From contig NZ_CP011040.1 in assembly GCF_000238255.3 (NCBI RefSeq), positions 1,178,001-1,242,000 of the forward strand: a DNA stretch of 64,000 nt, read 5' to 3'. The position numbers and the translations under genes were made by a program. Each line of letters starts with the position of its first letter. The first letter of the stretch is position 1. The notes under the pieces are model-generated. The model worked only from the letters and a program-made list of their open reading frames with translations, was not told the DNA's origin and did not search any database. This document shows, piece by piece, positions 55,293-64,000 of the stretch. The DNA is from Pseudoalteromonas spongiae UST010723-006. Its GTDB lineage: Bacteria > Pseudomonadota > Gammaproteobacteria > Enterobacterales > Alteromonadaceae.

Positions 55293-57425
55293 TTAAAACG
55301 TATAATTAGCAGATAACGACACAAGGCGTCCGTTACCCGGCGCTACGCCCCAATCCATGCCCTTTGCCCCAGCCGATACCCAATATTCTTTATCAAATAG
55401 GTTTTCAACTTTAAAGCGTAGCATTAAATTAAGGTCGCTAAAGTCATAACGCACGCCCGTATCAACGCCCGTATCAACGCGCGTATAGCTTGGCAGTGAT
55501 AAGCTGTTTTGTAAGTTTTGTTGGCGCTCACCCACGTAAAAAACACCAATATTGGCGCTTAACCCAGACAAGCCTTTTAGCGAAGCAAAGTTATAATCAA
55601 CAAATAGGTTGCCTTGCGTTTTTGGCACATTATGTGGCTGATTACCATTGATCTATGCTTGCCCCGCTAGCTCTCTAATTTCTGCATCCATAAAGCTGGT
55701 TGAGAATACTAACGATAGGTTCTCGATAATTTCACCATTGGCGTTTAACTCAATACCGCGGTGACGTTGCACACCATCTTGCACAAAGTAATTGGTAGCG
55801 CGATTATGATACTCCAATGACTTTTCGATTTGATAAATCGCAGCGCTAAATGTGGCCTTGTTGAAGCGATACTTTACGCCCACTTCCATTTGCTCACTTT
55901 CTTGCGCACCGAGGTACTGGCCTTCGTTTTCAGCGCCACTGCCAATCACCGCAATGCCGCCTTCGCCTGCGCCTGCGCCTTCGGTATACATACCGTAAAA
56001 TGCCAGCGCATCATTTGGGCTATAATTAATACCCAGCGTTGGTGTGGTATAACTATCATCGTGTGTGCGTACTCGTTGCTCGCCTGGGGCTGTTTTATCA
56101 CGCTGATAGGTTAAATGCCTCACTCCTAAGGTTGCATACACATGATCGCTAAAGTGCACAATATCTGTGATAAATACCGCACGTTCGCGCGATTTTTCTA
56201 GATTCGCATCTGGGATCTCTGGAAACTCAGGGCGCGCTGTATAAACAGGCTCAAACAGGCTTGCAACTGGATTTTCAAGTTCGAACCAACGACCCGAAAT
56301 AGACTCTAAATCACGGTAACTTACGCCAACCACCAGCTCATAATTTATAAAACCGGTTTCTACTTCGCCACTTAAAAAACTGTGCCCAGAGCGTGCTTTA
56401 AACGACTCATTTGGCGTGACTAAAATAGCGGCACTCAGTACCTCCCCTTCAGGTGATGTGGCATAAATATCAGGGAAAATGGTAAAGCGATCATTGTTGC
56501 TTAGCGCCACCTGATTAACCCATTGCCAATTATCATTTAACCAGTAATCCACACGCGCGCCAATATTATAAGTTTCTGTCTCGTACAACGCCCACGGTTG
56601 GCCTAGCAGTACCTCTTGGGTGTCGACATAAGGTGGTAAAAAGGTTTGCCCATTTTCACCATACACTAAGCCAATTAGGGGTTGCGAGACAATCGACTTG
56701 TCGTGAAAATCAAAATCTAGTCTGACAAGCACCTGATCATTTAACTGCCAATCAAATGCACTGCTTAAAAAGTAGCGTTCGGTGTCATCACCGCCGGTAA
56801 AATCACCATTATCTTCTATCGCTGCGTTCACACGATAACCCACATCACTTTGTGCTGATAGCGGGCCGCCCATATCAAGCGACAAATAACGACCATCGCT
56901 GCTGTTAAGTTCTGCACCAAGCTCAATAAATTGCTCAGAGGTAGGTCGTTTGGTTACGTAATTAACCGTGCCACCGGGATTGTTAATCCCTGCAATCACA
57001 CCCGACGGCCCTTTTAGCACATCAATGCGTTGAACATTTTCAAGTGCTACATCTTGGTATGGCGCTAGCGATAAACCATCACGTCGCAGGCCATTATTCC
57101 AATCCAGTTGAAAGCCCCGCAAACTGACAAAATCAAACACAGTACCTATTGAGGTATTTTGTACCGACGCATCATTACTTAGTACCTCACTTAACGTACG
57201 CGCAAGCTGATTATCGATAAATTGTTCTGAAAACGACTGAATGGAAATTGGCAGCTGCAAAGGATCTTTAATGCCCAGGGCAGCGGCGTTCACATCGCGG
57301 GCATCATACATTGGAGCACGTGTGCCCAATACTTCAATATGTTCGAGTGACTTTTCAGTATTGGCATAAAGGGAGAGCGTCAATAGAGAAAGAGGTAAGG
57401 CGCACACGCCATTATTTAACTTCAT
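55293..57425 (-). pseudogene. TonB-dependent siderophore receptor interrupted by an in-frame amber codon
   Basis: One continuous 710-codon frame with a single TAG (55653-55655, codon 591). Before it: signal peptide, plug (LEHIEVLGTRAPMYDARDVN, VLKGPSGVIAGINNPGGTVN) and most of the barrel, of the FpvA/FhuE-like siderophore-receptor type. After it, QPHNVPKTQGNLFVDYNF continues the barrel and the frame ends in the canonical LVSLSANYTF. Losing the last strands should stop outer-membrane insertion unless the amber codon is suppressed. A 12-bp tandem duplication (55454-55477, doubling VDTG) lies in the tail. Confidence 0.88.
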
Positions 57426-57618
57426 GGTTTTAAGGTCCGTTTAAAAAACAAAAAGATACATTATAACATATTATTTTGAAAGCATTAGCCAACACACAGC
57501 TGCCGCTTTTTCCTTTGGATAAAACAGAGAACATCGTTAATTTTTATTTAATATCAATAAATAAGCCCTAAAAATGTAGATTGAACGTGTTCTAATTGAC
57601 ATTAACAAAAACATTAAA

Positions 57619-57633
57619 TGATAATTATTACCA
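57619..57633. promoter_or_regulatory. Fur box upstream of the TonB receptor at 57695
   Basis: TGATAATTATTACCA fits the 7-1-7 Fur palindrome TGATAAT-N-ATTATCA with one mismatch, 62 bases before the receptor start. Confidence 0.7.
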
Positions 57634-57694
57634 CTTTTATTTGATTAAAAGTTTCTACAGTAACGTTTTAAATTTTCTCATTATAAGGATTAAC

Positions 57695-59725
57695 ATGAAG
57701 GCTTTACCTTTTCGGCTAAATACCGTTTTCACAGCCATTTTTATCGCTTCTATTTTCCATGCAGAGGCACAGCAAAGCGCCGATTCAAACGAAATTGAAA
57801 CCATTACTATCTTCGGTGAAAAGAAAGAGCAAACCATCTTTGAGACGGGTTCCAGCGTACACGCATTTGATGCAAATGCATTAAATTCACTAACCAATGT
57901 AAGTGAAATCGATGACTTACTTGAAATCATTCCAAACCTAGTCAGTTCTGGCATGGATAACAATCTGCCAACAGTTCGCGGAATCGATGGTTCTGGCCCG
58001 TCAGTGGGTGGATTGGCGAGTTTTGCAGGCACAGCTCCTCGTTTAAACATGTCCATAGATGGTCGCTCTCTCACTTATTCAGAAATCGCGTTTGGCCCAC
58101 GTTCCTTATGGGATATGCAACAAATTGAAGTCTATTTAGGGCCGCAGAGTTATATTCAAGGGCGCAGCGCATCTGCGGGTTCAATTGTAATGAAATCAAA
58201 TGATCCTGTGTATTATTTTGACAGCGCTATCAAAGTGGGAATTGCGAACCACGATTACCGACAAACCGCAGTAATGGTAAACGCACCACTTGTTGATGAT
58301 GAATTAGCATTACGTTTTAGTGCCGATCGCCAAACTAAAAACAGTCATCTCGATATCGTCAGTTACCAGCCTGCTGGAGATTCTCGCGAAATAAGCACAA
58401 CAAATATTCGCACTAAATTACGCTATGAACCGAGCGCTCTCGAAGAACTCACCTCTACTTTAACGTTTAATTATATGGATACACGTGCGCCACAATCTGA
58501 AAACGAAGTTGGCAGCTTTTTTCCAAAAGAACGTCCTGTTTATGACACCGATTCGACCAGTGCTGATTGGCAAATCGTTTATCAAATTTCCGATGCTGTG
58601 ATCTTTGAAAACAGTGTTAACTACACTGATTTTGGTTATGAGCGAATTACAGACCCTAAAGGCCGCCGCGCTGATTTTATCACTGATGGTGAAGAAATAT
58701 TTATAGAACCGATAATACGTTACAACCCTAGCAATGCGTCATTGTCTGCAATTACGGGGCTGCGCTACTTTGATTCCGCACATGATGACGTGTATACCCA
58801 CAACCGCGGTAAAAATGACATGACGGGAGAAACGACAACTCGTTCAGCTTTTGCCGAAGTGGTGTATAAAGTTAATGCGCAATTTACAGCGACACTTGGC
58901 GGTCGTTATGAAAGTGAAACCGTAACCCGAGTGGTTCCCCTATTCGCACTTGATTATGATGAAACCACCGATGTATTTTTGCCAAAAATAGATATTAATT
59001 TTGCACCAAAAGAAAATCAGGCATTTGGTTTTAAATCAGGAAAAGGGTTTAACTCAGGTGGTGCAGGGTTAAGCTTTAATACGTTTACTGCTCGTGCACC
59101 AATGAAACCTTACAGCTTTGACACCGAGTACGTCTGGAATTACGAACTGTATAGCAGACAGCGATTTTTCCAAAACACGCTCGAGCTAACCTCAAATCTA
59201 TTTTATAACGATTACGATGGTATGCAGATCCTACAAACTCATTCCGACGGTTATGTATCGGTGCAAAACCTCGATAGCGCAAATACTTATGGTGCAGAGG
59301 TAAACCTTCGTTGGCTTGCCCTTGATAACTTAGAGTTATCTGGTGGCGTTGGTTTACTTGAATCTGAATACAAAAAAAACAACACTAATACAAAAGTTGA
59401 AAAGGAACTACCAAGAGCCCCCAGCGCTTCCGCTAACCTTAACCTTGTGTATCGTTTCTTAAATAGCTTCCAGTTTTCGGCTAATGCCAATTACTCTAGC
59501 AGTTACTATTCAGACCGAAATAATATTGAAGCATTAAAAGTAGATGCCTATTGGCGCGCTAATGTGAAACTAGCTTACAAGTTTAATAATGGCCGCATTG
59601 CTTTATATGTAGATAATTTATTTGATGCAGATGATATCACCTTGATAAGCTCTGAGTTTGCACCCGAATCGCCGCTAACGATTACGCCAAGAACCATAGG
59701 CGCAAACTTCGAATATCACTTTTAA
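57695..59725 (+). CDS. TonB-dependent receptor, iron-regulated
   Basis: 676 residues from the ATG at 57695 (AAGGAT upstream); the frame is open further left but crosses the Fur box. Signal peptide (LNTVFTAIFIASIFHAEA), plug (SSGMDNNLPTVRGIDGSGPS, VYLGPQSYIQGRSASAGSIV) and a barrel ending TIGANFEYHF. Placed in an iron region with a Fur box, so the cargo is probably an iron complex, though it differs from the siderophore receptor type of its neighbour. A bidirectional terminator follows. Confidence 0.9.
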   Translation: MKALPFRLNTVFTAIFIASIFHAEAQQSADSNEIETITIFGEKKEQTIFETGSSVHAFDANALNSLTNVSEIDDLLEIIPNLVSSGMDNNLPTVRGIDGSGPSVGGLASFAGTAPRLNMSIDGRSLTYSEIAFGPRSLWDMQQIEVYLGPQSYIQGRSASAGSIVMKSNDPVYYFDSAIKVGIANHDYRQTAVMVNAPLVDDELALRFSADRQTKNSHLDIVSYQPAGDSREISTTNIRTKLRYEPSALEELTSTLTFNYMDTRAPQSENEVGSFFPKERPVYDTDSTSADWQIVYQISDAVIFENSVNYTDFGYERITDPKGRRADFITDGEEIFIEPIIRYNPSNASLSAITGLRYFDSAHDDVYTHNRGKNDMTGETTTRSAFAEVVYKVNAQFTATLGGRYESETVTRVVPLFALDYDETTDVFLPKIDINFAPKENQAFGFKSGKGFNSGGAGLSFNTFTARAPMKPYSFDTEYVWNYELYSRQRFFQNTLELTSNLFYNDYDGMQILQTHSDGYVSVQNLDSANTYGAEVNLRWLALDNLELSGGVGLLESEYKKNNTNTKVEKELPRAPSASANLNLVYRFLNSFQFSANANYSSSYYSDRNNIEALKVDAYWRANVKLAYKFNNGRIALYVDNLFDADDITLISSEFAPESPLTITPRTIGANFEYHF

Positions 59726-59729
59726 ATAC

Positions 59730-59759
59730 AATAAAGCCTGTTTTTAAACAGGCTTTATT
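59730..59759. terminator. Bidirectional terminator
   Basis: AATAAAGCCTGTTT (59730-59743) and AAACAGGCTTTATT (59746-59759), perfect 14-bp stem with T runs on both strands, between the TonB receptor and the SdhD-like gene. Confidence 0.9.
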
Positions 59760-59800: not shown

Positions 59801-60139
59801 TTAAAACCAAATAATATAGTTACCGAGTGCTGCAATCATTACACTTACCACAATACACAATGTATTGAATAAATAGTTAACGAAACTTCCCTTTACGTAA
59901 TCGCCTGCGATTTGCCAACCTGCCAACATGCTATTAAGCGATAACACAATAAGGCTTATACTTGCGATTACTTTAAACCAATGTGCGTTTAACAAGCCGA
60001 TTAACGATGCATAATCGTCGACAGGAAAAGTAGCGAACACAAAAACAAAACACAGACTAAGTAGCACAATAAATAAATTAGCAACCCGCTGAAAAACCCA
60101 CTGTTTTGTACCGTGACGATTAATGTTTAAACTAACCAA
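59801..60139 (-). CDS. SdhD-like succinate dehydrogenase membrane-anchor subunit, haem ligand lost
   Basis: 112 residues, three hydrophobic helices, matching E. coli SdhD in TKQWVFQRV (QEWVxxR region) and in the gapless second helix to AGWQIAGDYVKG. The axial haem ligand His71 of E. coli SdhD aligns with Asn69, while the quinone-site Tyr83 is kept (Tyr81 in GDYVKG). It overlaps the SdhC-like gene by 13 bases. No sdhA or sdhB is nearby, so it is an orphan anchor. A Fur box precedes the pair. The family match is good; the function is uncertain. Confidence 0.82.
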   Translation of the reverse strand: MVSLNINRHGTKQWVFQRVANLFIVLLSLCFVFVFATFPVDDYASLIGLLNAHWFKVIASISLIVLSLNSMLAGWQIAGDYVKGSFVNYLFNTLCIVVSVMIAALGNYIIWF

Positions 60140-60510
60140 ACCCAGCCTCCTGCAATAATGCTTAACACCAACGCCAAACCAATCGTAACGCGAGAAATCG
60201 CAATGCCACCTGATAACTCTTCAAAATAACCAAATTCCTGAATAAAGTGTTTAACACTTGCAACGCAATAATACGTCAATGCGGTTAACCCACCCCAAAC
60301 TAAAAATTGGATAAAAAATACATCATTAAAATAGGATTTCACTTCGTCAAACTGTTGTTGCGTTCGACTCGCATAATAAATAACAGGGATTAAAGCCACT
60401 GAATAAAACCAAATGATCACTGCACAAATTCGATGCAAAATTGATGCGTAGGCCGTAATCGGTAACGCCATGGTATGAATTGCCAAATTAACTGGCCGCT
60501 TATTTTTCAT
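60127..60510 (-). CDS. SdhC-like succinate dehydrogenase cytochrome b556 subunit
   Basis: 127 residues and three helices. KNKRPVNLAIHTMALPITAYASILHRI aligns with E. coli SdhC (QRPVNLDLQTIRFPITAIAS, then ILHRV); the quinone residues Ser23 and Arg27 and neighbouring His26 are present. VKHFIQEFGYFEE matches the haem-ligand segment, so the His84 equivalent (His88) is kept although its SdhD partner is not. The gene stands first of the pair, 45 bases after a Fur core, and there are no catalytic subunits. It may be an iron-starvation anchor or a ferric reductase-like pair. Confidence 0.85.
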   Translation of the reverse strand: MKNKRPVNLAIHTMALPITAYASILHRICAVIIWFYSVALIPVIYYASRTQQQFDEVKSYFNDVFFIQFLVWGGLTALTYYCVASVKHFIQEFGYFEELSGGIAISRVTIGLALVLSIIAGGWVWLV

Positions 60511-60551
60511 AACATAAAACCAAAATGAAAGAGTGAAAACAAATTAACACT

Positions 60552-60570
60552 AACGATAATCATTATCAAT
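60552..60570. promoter_or_regulatory. Fur box upstream of the SdhC/SdhD-like pair
   Basis: The core GATAATCATTATC (60555-60567) is a perfect 6-1-6 palindrome, equal to the right part of the classic Fur consensus GATAATGATAATCATTATC. It lies 45 bases before the SdhC-like start and is the best Fur match in the window. Confidence 0.8.
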
Positions 60571-60702: not shown

Positions 60703-60721
60703 GATAATAGCTATCATTAGC
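60703..60721. promoter_or_regulatory. Fur box upstream of the ECF sigma gene
   Basis: GATAATAGCTATCATTAGC matches the 19-base Fur consensus at 14 positions. It overlaps the first of several possible start codons, which argues that translation begins at 60746 or 60755. Confidence 0.65.
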
Positions 60722-60745
60722 ATTAGCGACAAATTGACTGTTTTA

Positions 60746-61258
60746 ATGATTTCAATGCAGCCTCCCTATACTGCCGAGCGAATTTATCAACATTGCATGC
60801 CGTTAATGCAGCAACACCTCGCCAAAAAAGTAGCATGTAGCGAAACCAGAAAAGATCTTTCGCAAGAGCTTTACCTCAAGCTTATGCTCGTTGAAAACTG
60901 GCATAGCATTGGCAATATTAATGCCTATGTCACAACCATGTTGAACAACTTAATTATTGATTTTTATCGCAAAAGTAGTAAAGAGTTAGTTGATGATGTC
61001 GATCTGGATTCACTTAAAGCCGATACTTGTCCAGAACAATATGTTGGCCAGCACCTGGCCATTGAAAAAATTCAACAACTGCTCGATAAACAAAAGCCCG
61101 AAATAAAAGATTTAATTTGGCGCGCTAAAATCAATGGCGATAGCTGTCGTAATATCGCGTGTGATAAAGGGCGCTCACTAAGTTGGGTTGAAAAGTCATT
61201 GGCTAATTTGCAAAGTAAATGCCGTCAGCTTATTTTAGGGTCGCAGCATAATGATTAA
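60746..61258 (+). CDS. FecI-like ECF sigma factor
   Basis: 170 residues from the ATG at 60746 (or 167 from 60755); neither has a strong ribosome site. Region 2 is seen in DLSQELYLKLMLVENWHSIGN and AYVTTMLNNLIIDFYRKSS, and region 4 in WRAKINGDSCRNIACDKGRS with SLSWVEKSLANLQ. It should direct polymerase to the promoter of the TonB receptor at 62213. Its end overlaps the FecR-like gene by 8 bases. Fur box upstream. Confidence 0.9.
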   Translation: MISMQPPYTAERIYQHCMPLMQQHLAKKVACSETRKDLSQELYLKLMLVENWHSIGNINAYVTTMLNNLIIDFYRKSSKELVDDVDLDSLKADTCPEQYVGQHLAIEKIQQLLDKQKPEIKDLIWRAKINGDSCRNIACDKGRSLSWVEKSLANLQSKCRQLILGSQHND

Positions 61259-62144
61259 ACGCTGGTTAATTCGAGTACAAGCCAAGCGCTGGTTAACAAA
61301 AATGCGCGCTGAGAATGTAACTTACGAGCAACAGCGCGCTTTTGCCGCTTGGTGCAAAAAGTCTAAACAACATCAAGATACCTATTTTGCTGAGCGCGAC
61401 ATATTACTAAACAGCAACAGCAATGAAGCGCCTCGTTTAGGTCATTCATTGGCGTTTTTATCGTTAGTGGCATTTGCGCTGACAATTTGGCTTGTCAAAA
61501 CGCCCAACACCAGCAAAATAGCGCCATCATTGATGTACTTTAGTGCCGAGCAAAGCCCTGTAACCTTAAGCGATGGTTCGGTAATTGAGTTAAAAAAAGC
61601 CACTAAAATTGCCGTTGCTTACAGCCAAAACGAACGCATAATCAAATTGCTTGAAGGAGATGCCTGGTTTGATGTCGCAAGTGACGCTAATCGACCATTT
61701 CGCGTTGAGTTTAATAATAAGCAAGTCACCGCGCTAGGTACGTCTTTTTTGATCAATACGTTAGGCGTTGCAAAAGTGGTTGTAACCGAGCATAAAGTTA
61801 GTGTTACCAACACCCAAACCAAGCAAATGCAGCAACTTGCACAAGGTGAAGGGTTAATTTTATCAAATAAACATTGGCTGAAAATGCACGCAAGCGAAAT
61901 TAATGCGGCACTGGCATGGCGTGATGGCAAACTGATCTTTAATGCAACTCCGCTCGGTGATGCAATTAAGCAGTTACAACCTTTTGTGGATTACAAAATC
62001 AGCGTCGTTAATCAGCAACACCTAAATTTAAAAGTAACCGGTAATGTAAATACACAATCGCCTGAGTTTGCGCTTTCTTTGTTATTGGAAAGCTTAAATT
62101 TAAAGCAAATGCGCAATGCCAGTAACGATCTCATAATTTATTAA
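61251..62144 (+). CDS. FecR-like anti-sigma/signal transducer
   Basis: 297 residues. An N-terminal cytoplasmic sigma-binding part with the DUF4880-like start (RAENVTYEQQRAFAAWCKKS), one membrane helix (SLAFLSLVAFALTIWLV, about 64-82), then the periplasmic FecR domain (VTLSDGSVIELKKATKI) and a C-terminal DUF4974-like part (AWRDGKLIFNATPLGDAIKQ). It relays occupancy of the outer-membrane receptor to the sigma factor. It sits in the standard FecI-FecR-FecA order. Confidence 0.9.
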   Translation: MIKRWLIRVQAKRWLTKMRAENVTYEQQRAFAAWCKKSKQHQDTYFAERDILLNSNSNEAPRLGHSLAFLSLVAFALTIWLVKTPNTSKIAPSLMYFSAEQSPVTLSDGSVIELKKATKIAVAYSQNERIIKLLEGDAWFDVASDANRPFRVEFNNKQVTALGTSFLINTLGVAKVVVTEHKVSVTNTQTKQMQQLAQGEGLILSNKHWLKMHASEINAALAWRDGKLIFNATPLGDAIKQLQPFVDYKISVVNQQHLNLKVTGNVNTQSPEFALSLLLESLNLKQMRNASNDLIIY

Positions 62145-62212: not shown

Positions 62213-64000
62213 ATGAAAATCCTCCCACTTGCATTAGCTATTTCAACAGCCTCTCTTTCTACGATTTATTCACCTGTTGTGCTTGGCAATACGCAAAGTG
62301 TCAATCAGCTTGTTCAATTTGATATTAATGCATCCTCGCTACGCCAAGGTTTAGCTGAATTTACACGCGTTACTGGCATTCAATTATTTGTAAACGATGC
62401 GCTATTAAACGAACAACAAAATGCACCGCTTAAAGGCCAATTTACAGCGGCTCAAGGCCTTACATATTTGCTCAACCAATCAAATTTATACGCTGAGTGG
62501 AAATCACCGCAAGGTGTGGTGCTAAAAGCAAAAGCACCGCAAAATCAACGTTCGCAAACGACGAGCAAACCATCAACAACTGCGTCATTAGATAACATTG
62601 AAGTAGTGCAAGTAAATGGCTCTCGTATGCAACAAGGGCTGACCAGTGTTGCACGTCAAACCAGCTATTTTTCAGCAGCCGATATTTCCAATGCAATGGC
62701 CGCGAATGCAAACTTAGCTCAGGTAATTGGCAAACTAGTGCCCGGTGTATCGCCTGCCAGTCAAACCATGACGAATTTTGGTTTAACATTACGTGGGCGC
62801 AATTTACTGGTGCTGATTGATGGCGTGCCAATGAGCACTAACCGTAATGTGTCGCGCGACCTATTTAATCTTGATCCATCACTGATCTATTCAATTGAGA
62901 TTGTACGTGGTGGTAACGCCATTTACGGTTCAGGCGCAAGCGGCGGTGTGATGTACATCACCACTAAAACGGCTAAGCAATCAAGCACCCAAACACGTGC
63001 AGAATTAAGCACTAGCTTAACTGAAATTTCAAGCGATGCCGCCACCTATAAACTTGGTCAAAGTATTGCTGATCAACGTGATAAGCTGTCGTTTGCAGTG
63101 GACTTTGATATCGCATCGACCGGTGGCTATTTTGATGCAAATGGTGACAGAATTGCACCAGAGCCAAGCCAAGGTGATCTGTTTGACAGCACTCAATTTA
63201 GCCTTCACGGCAAGGTCGGTTATCAGTTTGATAAAAATGCAGAGCTGTTTGCCAGTGTAATGTGGTTTGATTCAAGCCAAGACACTGAGTTCGCGTCAGA
63301 TCCAAGTGTTAACTCGCTGCCATTACATAGCGTAAGTGCAAAACCGCGCAAAGGCCTGGTATTAGCTGAACAAAATAGTGCCGACAACTTAATGTTTAAC
63401 CTTCATTATGTTGACAACGATTTATGGTCGCAGCAGTTTTCTGGCCAGCTTTATTATCGCGACTACGAAACCCGCTTTTATCCGTTTGACGGTCGCCCAT
63501 TCGCCTCTTGGAATCATTTAGGGCAAGTTTACCTTAATGCGCAAGTGCTTGGTTTTAGAAGCGCATTTAGCCTGCCAATTAGCAATCACACCGTTATTTA
63601 TGGCCTAGATGGTAATTTTGAGTCAACTAAAATGCCGATCACAGCATACGACCCAGAAGTATTTGATAACAGTAACGGCTTAGAGTTCGTCAAACTCGAA
63701 GATAAAACCTTTATGCCAGAAACCGATACCAATAACATTGCCGCATTTGCGCAATACAAGTACCACACAGATTGGGGTCTTGATGTAGATGCCGGTGCAC
63801 GTTTTGAACATATTCGTGTTTCGTTCGATGATTTTACAACCCTTGGCCAAGGTAACTCTGTTGATGGTGGCAGCAAAAGCTACGACGGCACTATGCTAAA
63901 CGCTAGCGTAAACTATAGCCTAACCGACAATGTAAAAACCTATATCGCATTTGACCAAGGGTACGAATTACCTGATATTGGTCTGCTACTTCGCTACGCA
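62213..64000 (+). CDS. FecA-like TonB-dependent receptor with STN signalling domain, cut by window edge
   Basis: 596 codons visible; the frame is open to the end. ATG at 62213 with TTAAGG before it. Signal peptide, then an STN domain (FDINASSLRQGLAEFTRVTG, about 39-100), a linker, plug (VIGKLVPGVSPASQTMTNFG, RGGNAIYGSGASGGVMYITT) and the first barrel strands. The STN domain is what contacts the FecR-like protein, so this is the sensor of the system. The ligand is not deducible but, with Fur control of the sigma gene, an iron complex is likely. Confidence 0.92.
   Translation, partial: MKILPLALAISTASLSTIYSPVVLGNTQSVNQLVQFDINASSLRQGLAEFTRVTGIQLFVNDALLNEQQNAPLKGQFTAAQGLTYLLNQSNLYAEWKSPQGVVLKAKAPQNQRSQTTSKPSTTASLDNIEVVQVNGSRMQQGLTSVARQTSYFSAADISNAMAANANLAQVIGKLVPGVSPASQTMTNFGLTLRGRNLLVLIDGVPMSTNRNVSRDLFNLDPSLIYSIEIVRGGNAIYGSGASGGVMYITTKTAKQSSTQTRAELSTSLTEISSDAATYKLGQSIADQRDKLSFAVDFDIASTGGYFDANGDRIAPEPSQGDLFDSTQFSLHGKVGYQFDKNAELFASVMWFDSSQDTEFASDPSVNSLPLHSVSAKPRKGLVLAEQNSADNLMFNLHYVDNDLWSQQFSGQLYYRDYETRFYPFDGRPFASWNHLGQVYLNAQVLGFRSAFSLPISNHTVIYGLDGNFESTKMPITAYDPEVFDNSNGLEFVKLEDKTFMPETDTNNIAAFAQYKYHTDWGLDVDAGARFEHIRVSFDDFTTLGQGNSVDGGSKSYDGTMLNASVNYSLTDNVKTYIAFDQGYELPDIGLLLRYA

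Follow-up and report, generated by a model that had tools for sequence, protein, structure and literature searches.

Pseudoalteromonas spongiae UST010723-006 has a genome of two contigs and 4.75 Mb. The locus described here belongs to its smaller replicon (contig C2, 1.60 Mb) and was analysed within a 64-kb stretch of DNA that we refer to as the window. Two small genes, both read leftwards and overlapping by 13 bases, are found on its minus strand: sdhC2 (60127..60510), coding for an SdhC-like anchor of 127 aa, and sdhD2 (59801..60139), which uses a TTG start and codes for an SdhD-like anchor of 112 aa. Both were defined from the open reading frame list, NCBI profiles, alignment, and AF2/Foldseek. 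The initial annotation had placed an SdhC/SdhD-like pair here, and both products indeed score above the general curated cut-offs of NCBI (TIGR02970 for SdhC, 66.0 bits against 52.3; TIGR02968 for SdhD, 56.4 bits against 41.8). They fall under the cut-offs of the narrower equivalog models of the E. coli type (NF007021 for SdhC2, 101.3 bits against 180; NF007022 for SdhD2, 29.2 bits against 170), and with respect to the gathering score of Pfam Sdh_cyt (PF01127, 25.8), SdhC2 lies above at 60.1 and SdhD2 below at 13.8. The AF2 model of SdhC2 has a mean pLDDT of 90.1 and finds E. coli SdhC as its best Foldseek match, at a TM-score of 0.88-0.89; that of SdhD2 (mean pLDDT 89.3) finds E. coli SdhD chains as best matches, at TM-scores of 0.77-0.78 and an E-value of 1.6e-3 at best. 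Going by profiles and predicted structures, sdhC2 and sdhD2 are thus members of the SdhC and SdhD families with a predicted helical anchor fold.

The genes on either side look like those of an iron-uptake locus in part. Divergent from sdhC2, and identified by open reading frames and profile searches, are a FecI-like ECF sigma factor (60743..61258, plus strand), which scores under the cut-offs of the FecI equivalog models, and a FecR-like regulator (61251..62144, plus strand). A TonB-dependent receptor (62213..64000, plus strand) follows downstream of fecIR and runs past the end of the window; its TIGR01783 match (G000:C2:1240663-1242633) is below cut-off. On the other side, convergent with sdhD2, lies a siderophore-type TonB-dependent receptor (57596..59725, plus strand; TIGR01783, 240.8 bits against a cut-off of 223.5), with a Fur-like site near 57620. 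An inverted repeat between this receptor and sdhD2, AATAAAGCCTG-TTTTTAAA-CAGGCTTTATT (59730..59759, no strand assigned), has a terminator-like appearance and could be the boundary of a two-gene unit; it is a weak call, as it was read by eye and the terminator scan of the locus reported none. A promoter scan returned 4 sites compared with 4.2 in shuffled sequence. Further along, a siderophore-type TonB receptor at 55293-57425 (minus strand) is split into open reading frames of 590 and 111 aa, in a frame with one TAG inside, and is possibly a pseudogene or a sequence error.

Within the 64-kb window, profile searches find no SdhA or SdhB above cut-off, as had been claimed from the letters alone, and the only ones that the genome encodes, one of each, are on the other replicon (C1). 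There they form part of a complete canonical sdhCDAB operon with His/His anchors (SdhC at 1602339-1602698, SdhA at 1600219-1601973, and SdhB at 1599521-1600183); a second SdhA-profile match in the genome, at 306 bits, is far under the cut-off of 727. The possibility raised earlier that a rearranged sdhAB might have the orphan genes as its only anchors does not hold, since sdhAB sit in this canonical operon with anchors of their own. Given the single SdhAB of the genome, the orphans, if they are SdhAB anchors, would use the one encoded on C1; as no gene for a partner lies close by, the simplest assumption is that they dock to the housekeeping SdhAB. The arrangement extends to other orphan-bearing genomes: exactly one SdhB above cut-off is present in 24 of 25, and in all 25 the SdhB genes above cut-off are on another contig or more than 700 kb from the orphan pair. 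The Glaciecola MAG (G705) is the sole one of the 25 to encode two; the second is an SdhB/FrdB-type protein above the TIGR00384 cut-off (G705:C64:7815-8492).

The residues at the haem-binding positions set the pair apart. E. coli SdhC His84 and SdhD His71, both named in the titles of mutant entries in the PDB, are what we take to be the axial ligands of haem b. In alignment with 1nek_C, His84 falls opposite Tyr81 of SdhC2, with the His84Met mutant chain 2wu2_C marking the column, and His71 falls opposite Asn69 of SdhD2, marked by the His71Met chain 2wu5_D. The initial annotation had recognized Asn69 and held that the SdhC ligand was kept; the first of these agrees with our alignment and the second does not. 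The histidine mistaken for the ligand was probably His88 of SdhC2, which aligns with E. coli SdhC His91, presumably not a haem ligand. Thus, both axial-ligand positions of haem b are replaced. In E. coli SDH, each of the two subunits contributes one histidine to haem ligation (PMC3290573). Other positions of SdhC2 retain the E. coli residue (Ser23, His26, and Arg27 for Ser27, His30, and Arg31), with Trp34 at the haem-pocket position Phe38; in SdhD2, Asp80 and Tyr81 correspond to E. coli Asp82 and Tyr83, and Asn21 and Ala73 stand at Ala23 and Gly75.

The replacement is not peculiar to this strain. Among 112 SdhC+SdhD pairs, 83 are His/His, 28 are Tyr/Asn, and one is Tyr/gap (L034, whose sdhD2 is broken); five loci (L055, L056, L113, L115, and L117) formed no such pair and are absent from this number. 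Leaving out the duplicates L120, L182, L183, and L184 and the broken L034, as was also done for the tree and the divergence ranking below, gives 24 orphan pairs that are distinct and intact, drawn from four genera and all Tyr/Asn, compared with none of the 83 canonical pairs, all of which are His/His; as the orphans form one clade, these are not independent counts and a Fisher test is not relied on. The initial annotation had asked whether Asn is conserved at the SdhD ligand column among relatives; it is, in every one of the 24.

Orphan SdhC genes were found in 22 of 108 genomes of the same genus, 46-100% identical to that of the window and each accompanied by a second, canonical match. A search with an alignment of ten orphans led to 62 named loci, of which 21 are orphans (18 from Pseudoalteromonas, and one each from Marinifaba aquimaris, Planctobacterium marinum, and the Glaciecola MAG). 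Every one of the 21 carries Tyr in place of the SdhC ligand and lacks an sdhAB match in its flanks, and 20 have Asn at the SdhD ligand, the exception being L058, from Pseudoalteromonas sp. P1-9. The remaining 41 have His at the SdhC ligand; SdhD was found in 39 of them, with His in each, and an sdhA match lies close behind in 40, with none in the short stretch of L113. P1-9 is the nearest relative among the named loci, with SdhC2 95% identical; its sdhD2 (L034:6082-6327 and L058) is broken, at 81 aa with a frameshift-like end, and its sdhC2 is intact. Wider draws point to a narrow distribution. A class draw of 369 genomes gave one match at E <= 1e-41, the window's own, and an order draw of 394 genomes searched with the SdhD alignment likewise has the window's own standing out alone (152 bits, the next at 78), the loci paired from this draw (L121-L149) being His/His. 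In a family draw of 395 genomes, 181 match at E <= 1e-32, with G000, G063, G081, G518, G705, and G516 at 179 bits or more and the next at 138; six lower matches that were paired (L185-L190) are all His/His. The orphan pair looks confined to the family Alteromonadaceae, with the proviso that these searches may have overlooked orphans of greater divergence.

In a maximum-likelihood tree built from 107 distinct pairs, the 24 orphans group as a single clade (ultrafast bootstrap 98) on a long stem of 0.91; its sister group has a support of only 54. For close pairs of orphans, dN/dS is about 0.02-0.33 in SdhC (all 12 pairs computed) and 0.08-0.34 in SdhD (eight of 12 computed, three saturated, and P1-9 left out). 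These low values indicate that the altered pair is under purifying selection, with the break in P1-9 as the exception.

To see where in the proteins the orphans have changed, the 230 columns of SdhC and SdhD together were ranked by divergence between the 24 orphans and the 83 canonical pairs. SdhC Ser27 and Arg31 and SdhD Asp82 and Tyr83, which we take to be Q-site residues, hold ranks 224, 226, 229, and 230 between them, and are invariant and kept in all 24 orphans. The two haem-ligand columns occupy ranks 1 and 2, followed by SdhD Gly75 to Ala (rank 3; all 24 orphans), SdhD Ala23 to Asn (rank 4; 22 of 24, Thr in the others), and SdhC Phe38 to Trp (rank 6; all 24), while ranks 5 and 7-12, also high, belong to columns with no known tie to haem. 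Ala23 and Phe38 are among the residues selected at 5 A or less from the haem edge in PMC3290573. A remodelling of the whole pocket was considered as a statistical claim and rejected: the seven pocket residues listed by PMC3290573 have, as a set, a mean rank of 82.6 of 230 and no significant excess of divergence (p = 0.098), with Phe38 and Ala23 standing out, together with Gly75, which is outside that list. The pattern is, at the level of aligned residues, one in which the haem site has changed and the quinone site has not.

Could haem still be bound through other residues? SdhC His26 or His88 might serve, in which case the pair would form a cytochrome b whose ligation or potential is altered, and His26 / His88 (the His30 / His91 equivalents) are kept in 24 / 29 orphan rows. 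A study of 2001 by Maklashina is moreover reported to have found that E. coli haem-ligand mutants retain haem. However, the same histidines are equally conserved in canonical copies (82/83 and 81/83, respectively), and hence are not new ligands, and residues next to the haem have changed as well (Ala23 to Asn and Phe38 to Trp), such that we regard this explanation as rather unlikely.

Regulation provides a second line of evidence. A Fur-like site, GATAATGATTATCGTTAGT on the minus strand (60549..60567), precedes sdhC2 with a profile score of 16.7 bits (p = 0.006); of 3000 random pieces of 250 nt, 0.57% score as high. It includes the palindromic 13-mer GATAATCATTATC at 60555-60567, 44 bases before the sdhC2 start, which is the only occurrence of GATAATNATTATC in the 64 kb (0.006 expected), and the perfect Fur-box motif described earlier as lying shortly upstream of sdhC2 is therefore present. 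The profile was built from ten sites that were selected by eye upstream of TonB receptors and fecI in the same genome, with the sdhC2 site excluded, and was applied to the 250 nt before each sdhC; it is a rough one, as the training sites were chosen for their likeness to a Fur consensus. Another Fur-like site (60703..60721, plus strand), closer to the divergent sigma-factor gene, belongs to this training set and so is not independent evidence. A Fur-family protein is encoded in the genome. Rfam RF00057, for RyhB-type sRNA, has no match in the genome; among 14 controls E. coli gave the only match, so the model is perhaps too narrow.

Across relatives, the orphan loci were sorted by their neighbours into ten contexts: the window with L034; the P. 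luteoviolacea group (12 loci, L035-L042 and L044-L047); L043; L048; L049; L050 with L051; L052-L054; L073; L077; and L078. Fur-like sites at p <= 0.025 are present within 250 nt before sdhC2 in seven of the ten, counting the L050/L051 context, where the threshold is passed in L051 only (p = 0.054 in L050). The profile scan found none before sdhC2 in L043 and L052-L054, and a marginal one in L078 (p = 0.06). Canonical sdhC genes, scored in the same manner for the genome's own copy and 16 other loci of the 41 (several near-identical), all gave p > 0.1.

The neighbouring genes are far less constant, and none is conserved beside sdhC2-sdhD2 across the contexts compared. The fecIR-type arrangement is found in the window and, by open reading frame sizes, in L034, and the other contexts differ. 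Neighbours include a TonB receptor (L043), AbgT and chromate transporters (L042, standing for the P. luteoviolacea group), cytochrome bd (L048), a porin and a chemotaxis receptor (L049), an acyltransferase and an ECF-type sigma protein (L050), a ChaN-type haem-binding protein (L073), and a flavodoxin (L078). In Planctobacterium marinum (L077:3202-11107), the pair is set between a PepSY-TM protein and an imelysin, followed by a di-haem oxidoreductase and another imelysin, and this is likely an iron locus. Several of these neighbour types are usual in iron regulons and others are not; the neighbours vary, and often, though not always, appear to have an iron-related look. Thus, of the context suggested at the outset, the Fur-like sites recur in most contexts and the co-occurrence with TonB/FecIR does not. 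The absence of a conserved neighbour also disfavours the proposal in the initial annotation that the pair is a reductase partner of the adjacent TonB receptors, as does the lack of an evident redox centre once the haem ligands are gone. A broader form of this idea is that the pair serves as the anchor of another soluble oxidoreductase, such as a siderophore-iron reductase, and has ceased to work with SdhAB. This would account for the missing sdhAB and for the genes for TonB, PepSY, flavodoxin, or FAD-reductase proteins found close to some copies. It would leave the retained Q-site and the changing neighbours unexplained, and we consider it improbable.

One context invites another explanation. 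In a P. aurantia-type genome (G009; L052 and L196-L197), the surroundings contain FAAL-NRPS and PKS genes, a PvdQ-like acylase (below cut-off), AraC, a formyltransferase-like protein, and two TonB receptors, with sdhC2-sdhD2 directly behind the PKS in L052; L053 and L054 were judged by open reading frame sizes only. We softened an earlier label of siderophore cluster for L052-L054, as the gene content is that of a FAAL-NRPS/PKS locus. Duplicated targets within biosynthetic clusters give self-resistance, and the placement of the pair directly behind FAAL-NRPS and PKS genes in genomes of this type invites such a reading, with spare anchors coming into use when the cell makes or meets an inhibitor of the complex II quinone site. 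The fungal alt-SDHC, which acts in this way against fungicides, is a precedent for an inhibitor-resistant isozyme (PMC6941823). However, it is the haem ligands that have changed, the four Q-site residues examined being unchanged in 24 of 24 orphans, and most contexts have Fur-like sites and no biosynthetic genes nearby. A resistance role for the pair is therefore unlikely in our view.

Our analysis suggests instead that sdhC2-sdhD2 probably encodes a haem-free alternative to the normal membrane anchor, one to which the housekeeping SdhAB docks upon Fur de-repression. A haem-poor anchor pair, induced by iron starvation and swapping into complex II, had been put forward in the initial annotation; the comparative evidence favours that still putative role more strongly than before, because both ligands are lost and because the loss is conserved. 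We infer docking to SdhAB, absence of haem, catalysis, and control by Fur, and the sequence of events may be pictured as follows. When iron falls, Fur would leave the site before sdhC2 and the pair would be made; SdhC2 and SdhD2 would then dock the genome's only SdhAB, and quinone, at the unchanged Q-site, would receive electrons from the last Fe-S cluster. The haem cavity would be closed by side chains, with Tyr81 and Asn69 meeting across the four-helix bundle and perhaps forming a hydrogen bond, as do His156 and Tyr108 in yeast, and with Trp34 and Asn21 filling space in the old cavity. The likely benefit would be that complex II assembly is freed from the haem supply. The haem accounts for one Fe compared with nine in the three clusters of SdhB, and thus assembly without haem is a likelier gain than the saving of iron; the Fe-S clusters of SdhB are still needed with a haem-free anchor. 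As the canonical enzyme stays in the orphan genomes, any benefit is conditional. Note here that the haem-free reading has to accommodate a broken sdhD2 in P1-9, several contexts with no iron-related neighbour, and three of ten contexts with no Fur-like site at p <= 0.025.

Stated in full, the hypothesis is that a Fur-controlled haem-free pair, which evolved once by remodelling of the haem site (Tyr/Asn for His/His, with Trp and Asn beside), recruits the housekeeping SdhAB as an iron-starvation isoform of complex II and so keeps the TCA cycle and respiration running when haem cannot be made. We hold this fuller version with roughly even confidence. The pair could also act in the opposite direction, as an inactive decoy anchor that titrates SdhAB away and shuts complex II down in iron shortage, a condition in which complex II is commonly lowered, for example through the Fur-controlled NrrF in Neisseria (PMC5586341). 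In that case there would be no reason for the Q-site residues to stay invariant across so deep a clade, and we judge a decoy very improbable.

Flavodoxin is an iron-poor substitute used in iron limitation. The fumarase FumC (PMC7064253) is likewise an iron-free or iron-poor substitute under iron limitation, and sdhC2-sdhD2 would resemble both; however, these replace whole proteins, whereas the orphan pair would replace the membrane anchors only, with the Fe-S core kept. The most direct counterpart is the type C SdhC/SdhD of E. coli (cytochrome b556), which shares the general profiles, the predicted folds, and the four Q-site residues. The orphans differ from it in having Tyr/Asn for both ligand histidines, no adjacent sdhAB, and a Fur-like site in most contexts. 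That haem loss is compatible with catalysis and with growth on succinate is indicated by an E. coli SDH engineered to be free of haem (Tran 2007, cited in PMC3290573), which has significant activity and supports growth on succinate, with a fall in rates and with haem stabilising the isolated enzyme. That is a laboratory variant and sdhC2-sdhD2 a natural one; from its activity it follows that a structurally compensated haem-free anchor could maintain complex II function under haem shortage.

A naturally haem-less relative is the type C complex II of Saccharomyces cerevisiae, which has Tyr at one ligand position. In this enzyme, His156 and Tyr108 are hydrogen-bonded directly to each other, alongside three further hydrogen bonds and additional phenylalanines (PMC13066397). 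The likeness to the orphans lies in the type C anchors and the Tyr at a ligand position, with side-chain contacts in yeast taking the place of His-haem-His. In yeast, though, it is the housekeeping enzyme that is haem-less and Sdh3 keeps its His, whereas the orphans have lost both ligands, occur in addition to a His/His enzyme, and have regulatory sites of the iron type. The alt-SDHC of Zymoseptoria tritici (ZtSDHC3) parallels the orphans as an anchor paralog, being a dispensable SDHC that makes a functional enzyme with the other SDH subunits (PMC6941823); it differs in being a single subunit, in being eukaryotic, and in its link to fungicide resistance via a Q-site residue.

In titles and abstract openings, with subscription journals mostly outside the scope of the search, we found no description of an orphan, or natural haem-less Fur-linked, SdhC/SdhD anchor isozyme. 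If the proposed role is true, it would represent a new mode of iron adaptation, in which the anchor subunits of a respiratory complex are exchanged and not the whole enzyme. What haem b does in E. coli complex II has been called highly ambiguous (PMC3290573). The same SdhAB, in the same cell, with either His/His or ligand-less anchors seems to provide a natural experiment, in which the role of haem, and whether it limits assembly under iron starvation, are directly testable.

A different lone SdhC paralog is present in two others of the 108 genomes of the genus, G018 and G039 (L055:8039-8422 and L056:8338-8733). It keeps His84, and neither an adjacent SdhD match nor a Fur-like site accompanies it; the copy at L055 is located behind ruvX, algH-like, and glutathione synthetase genes.
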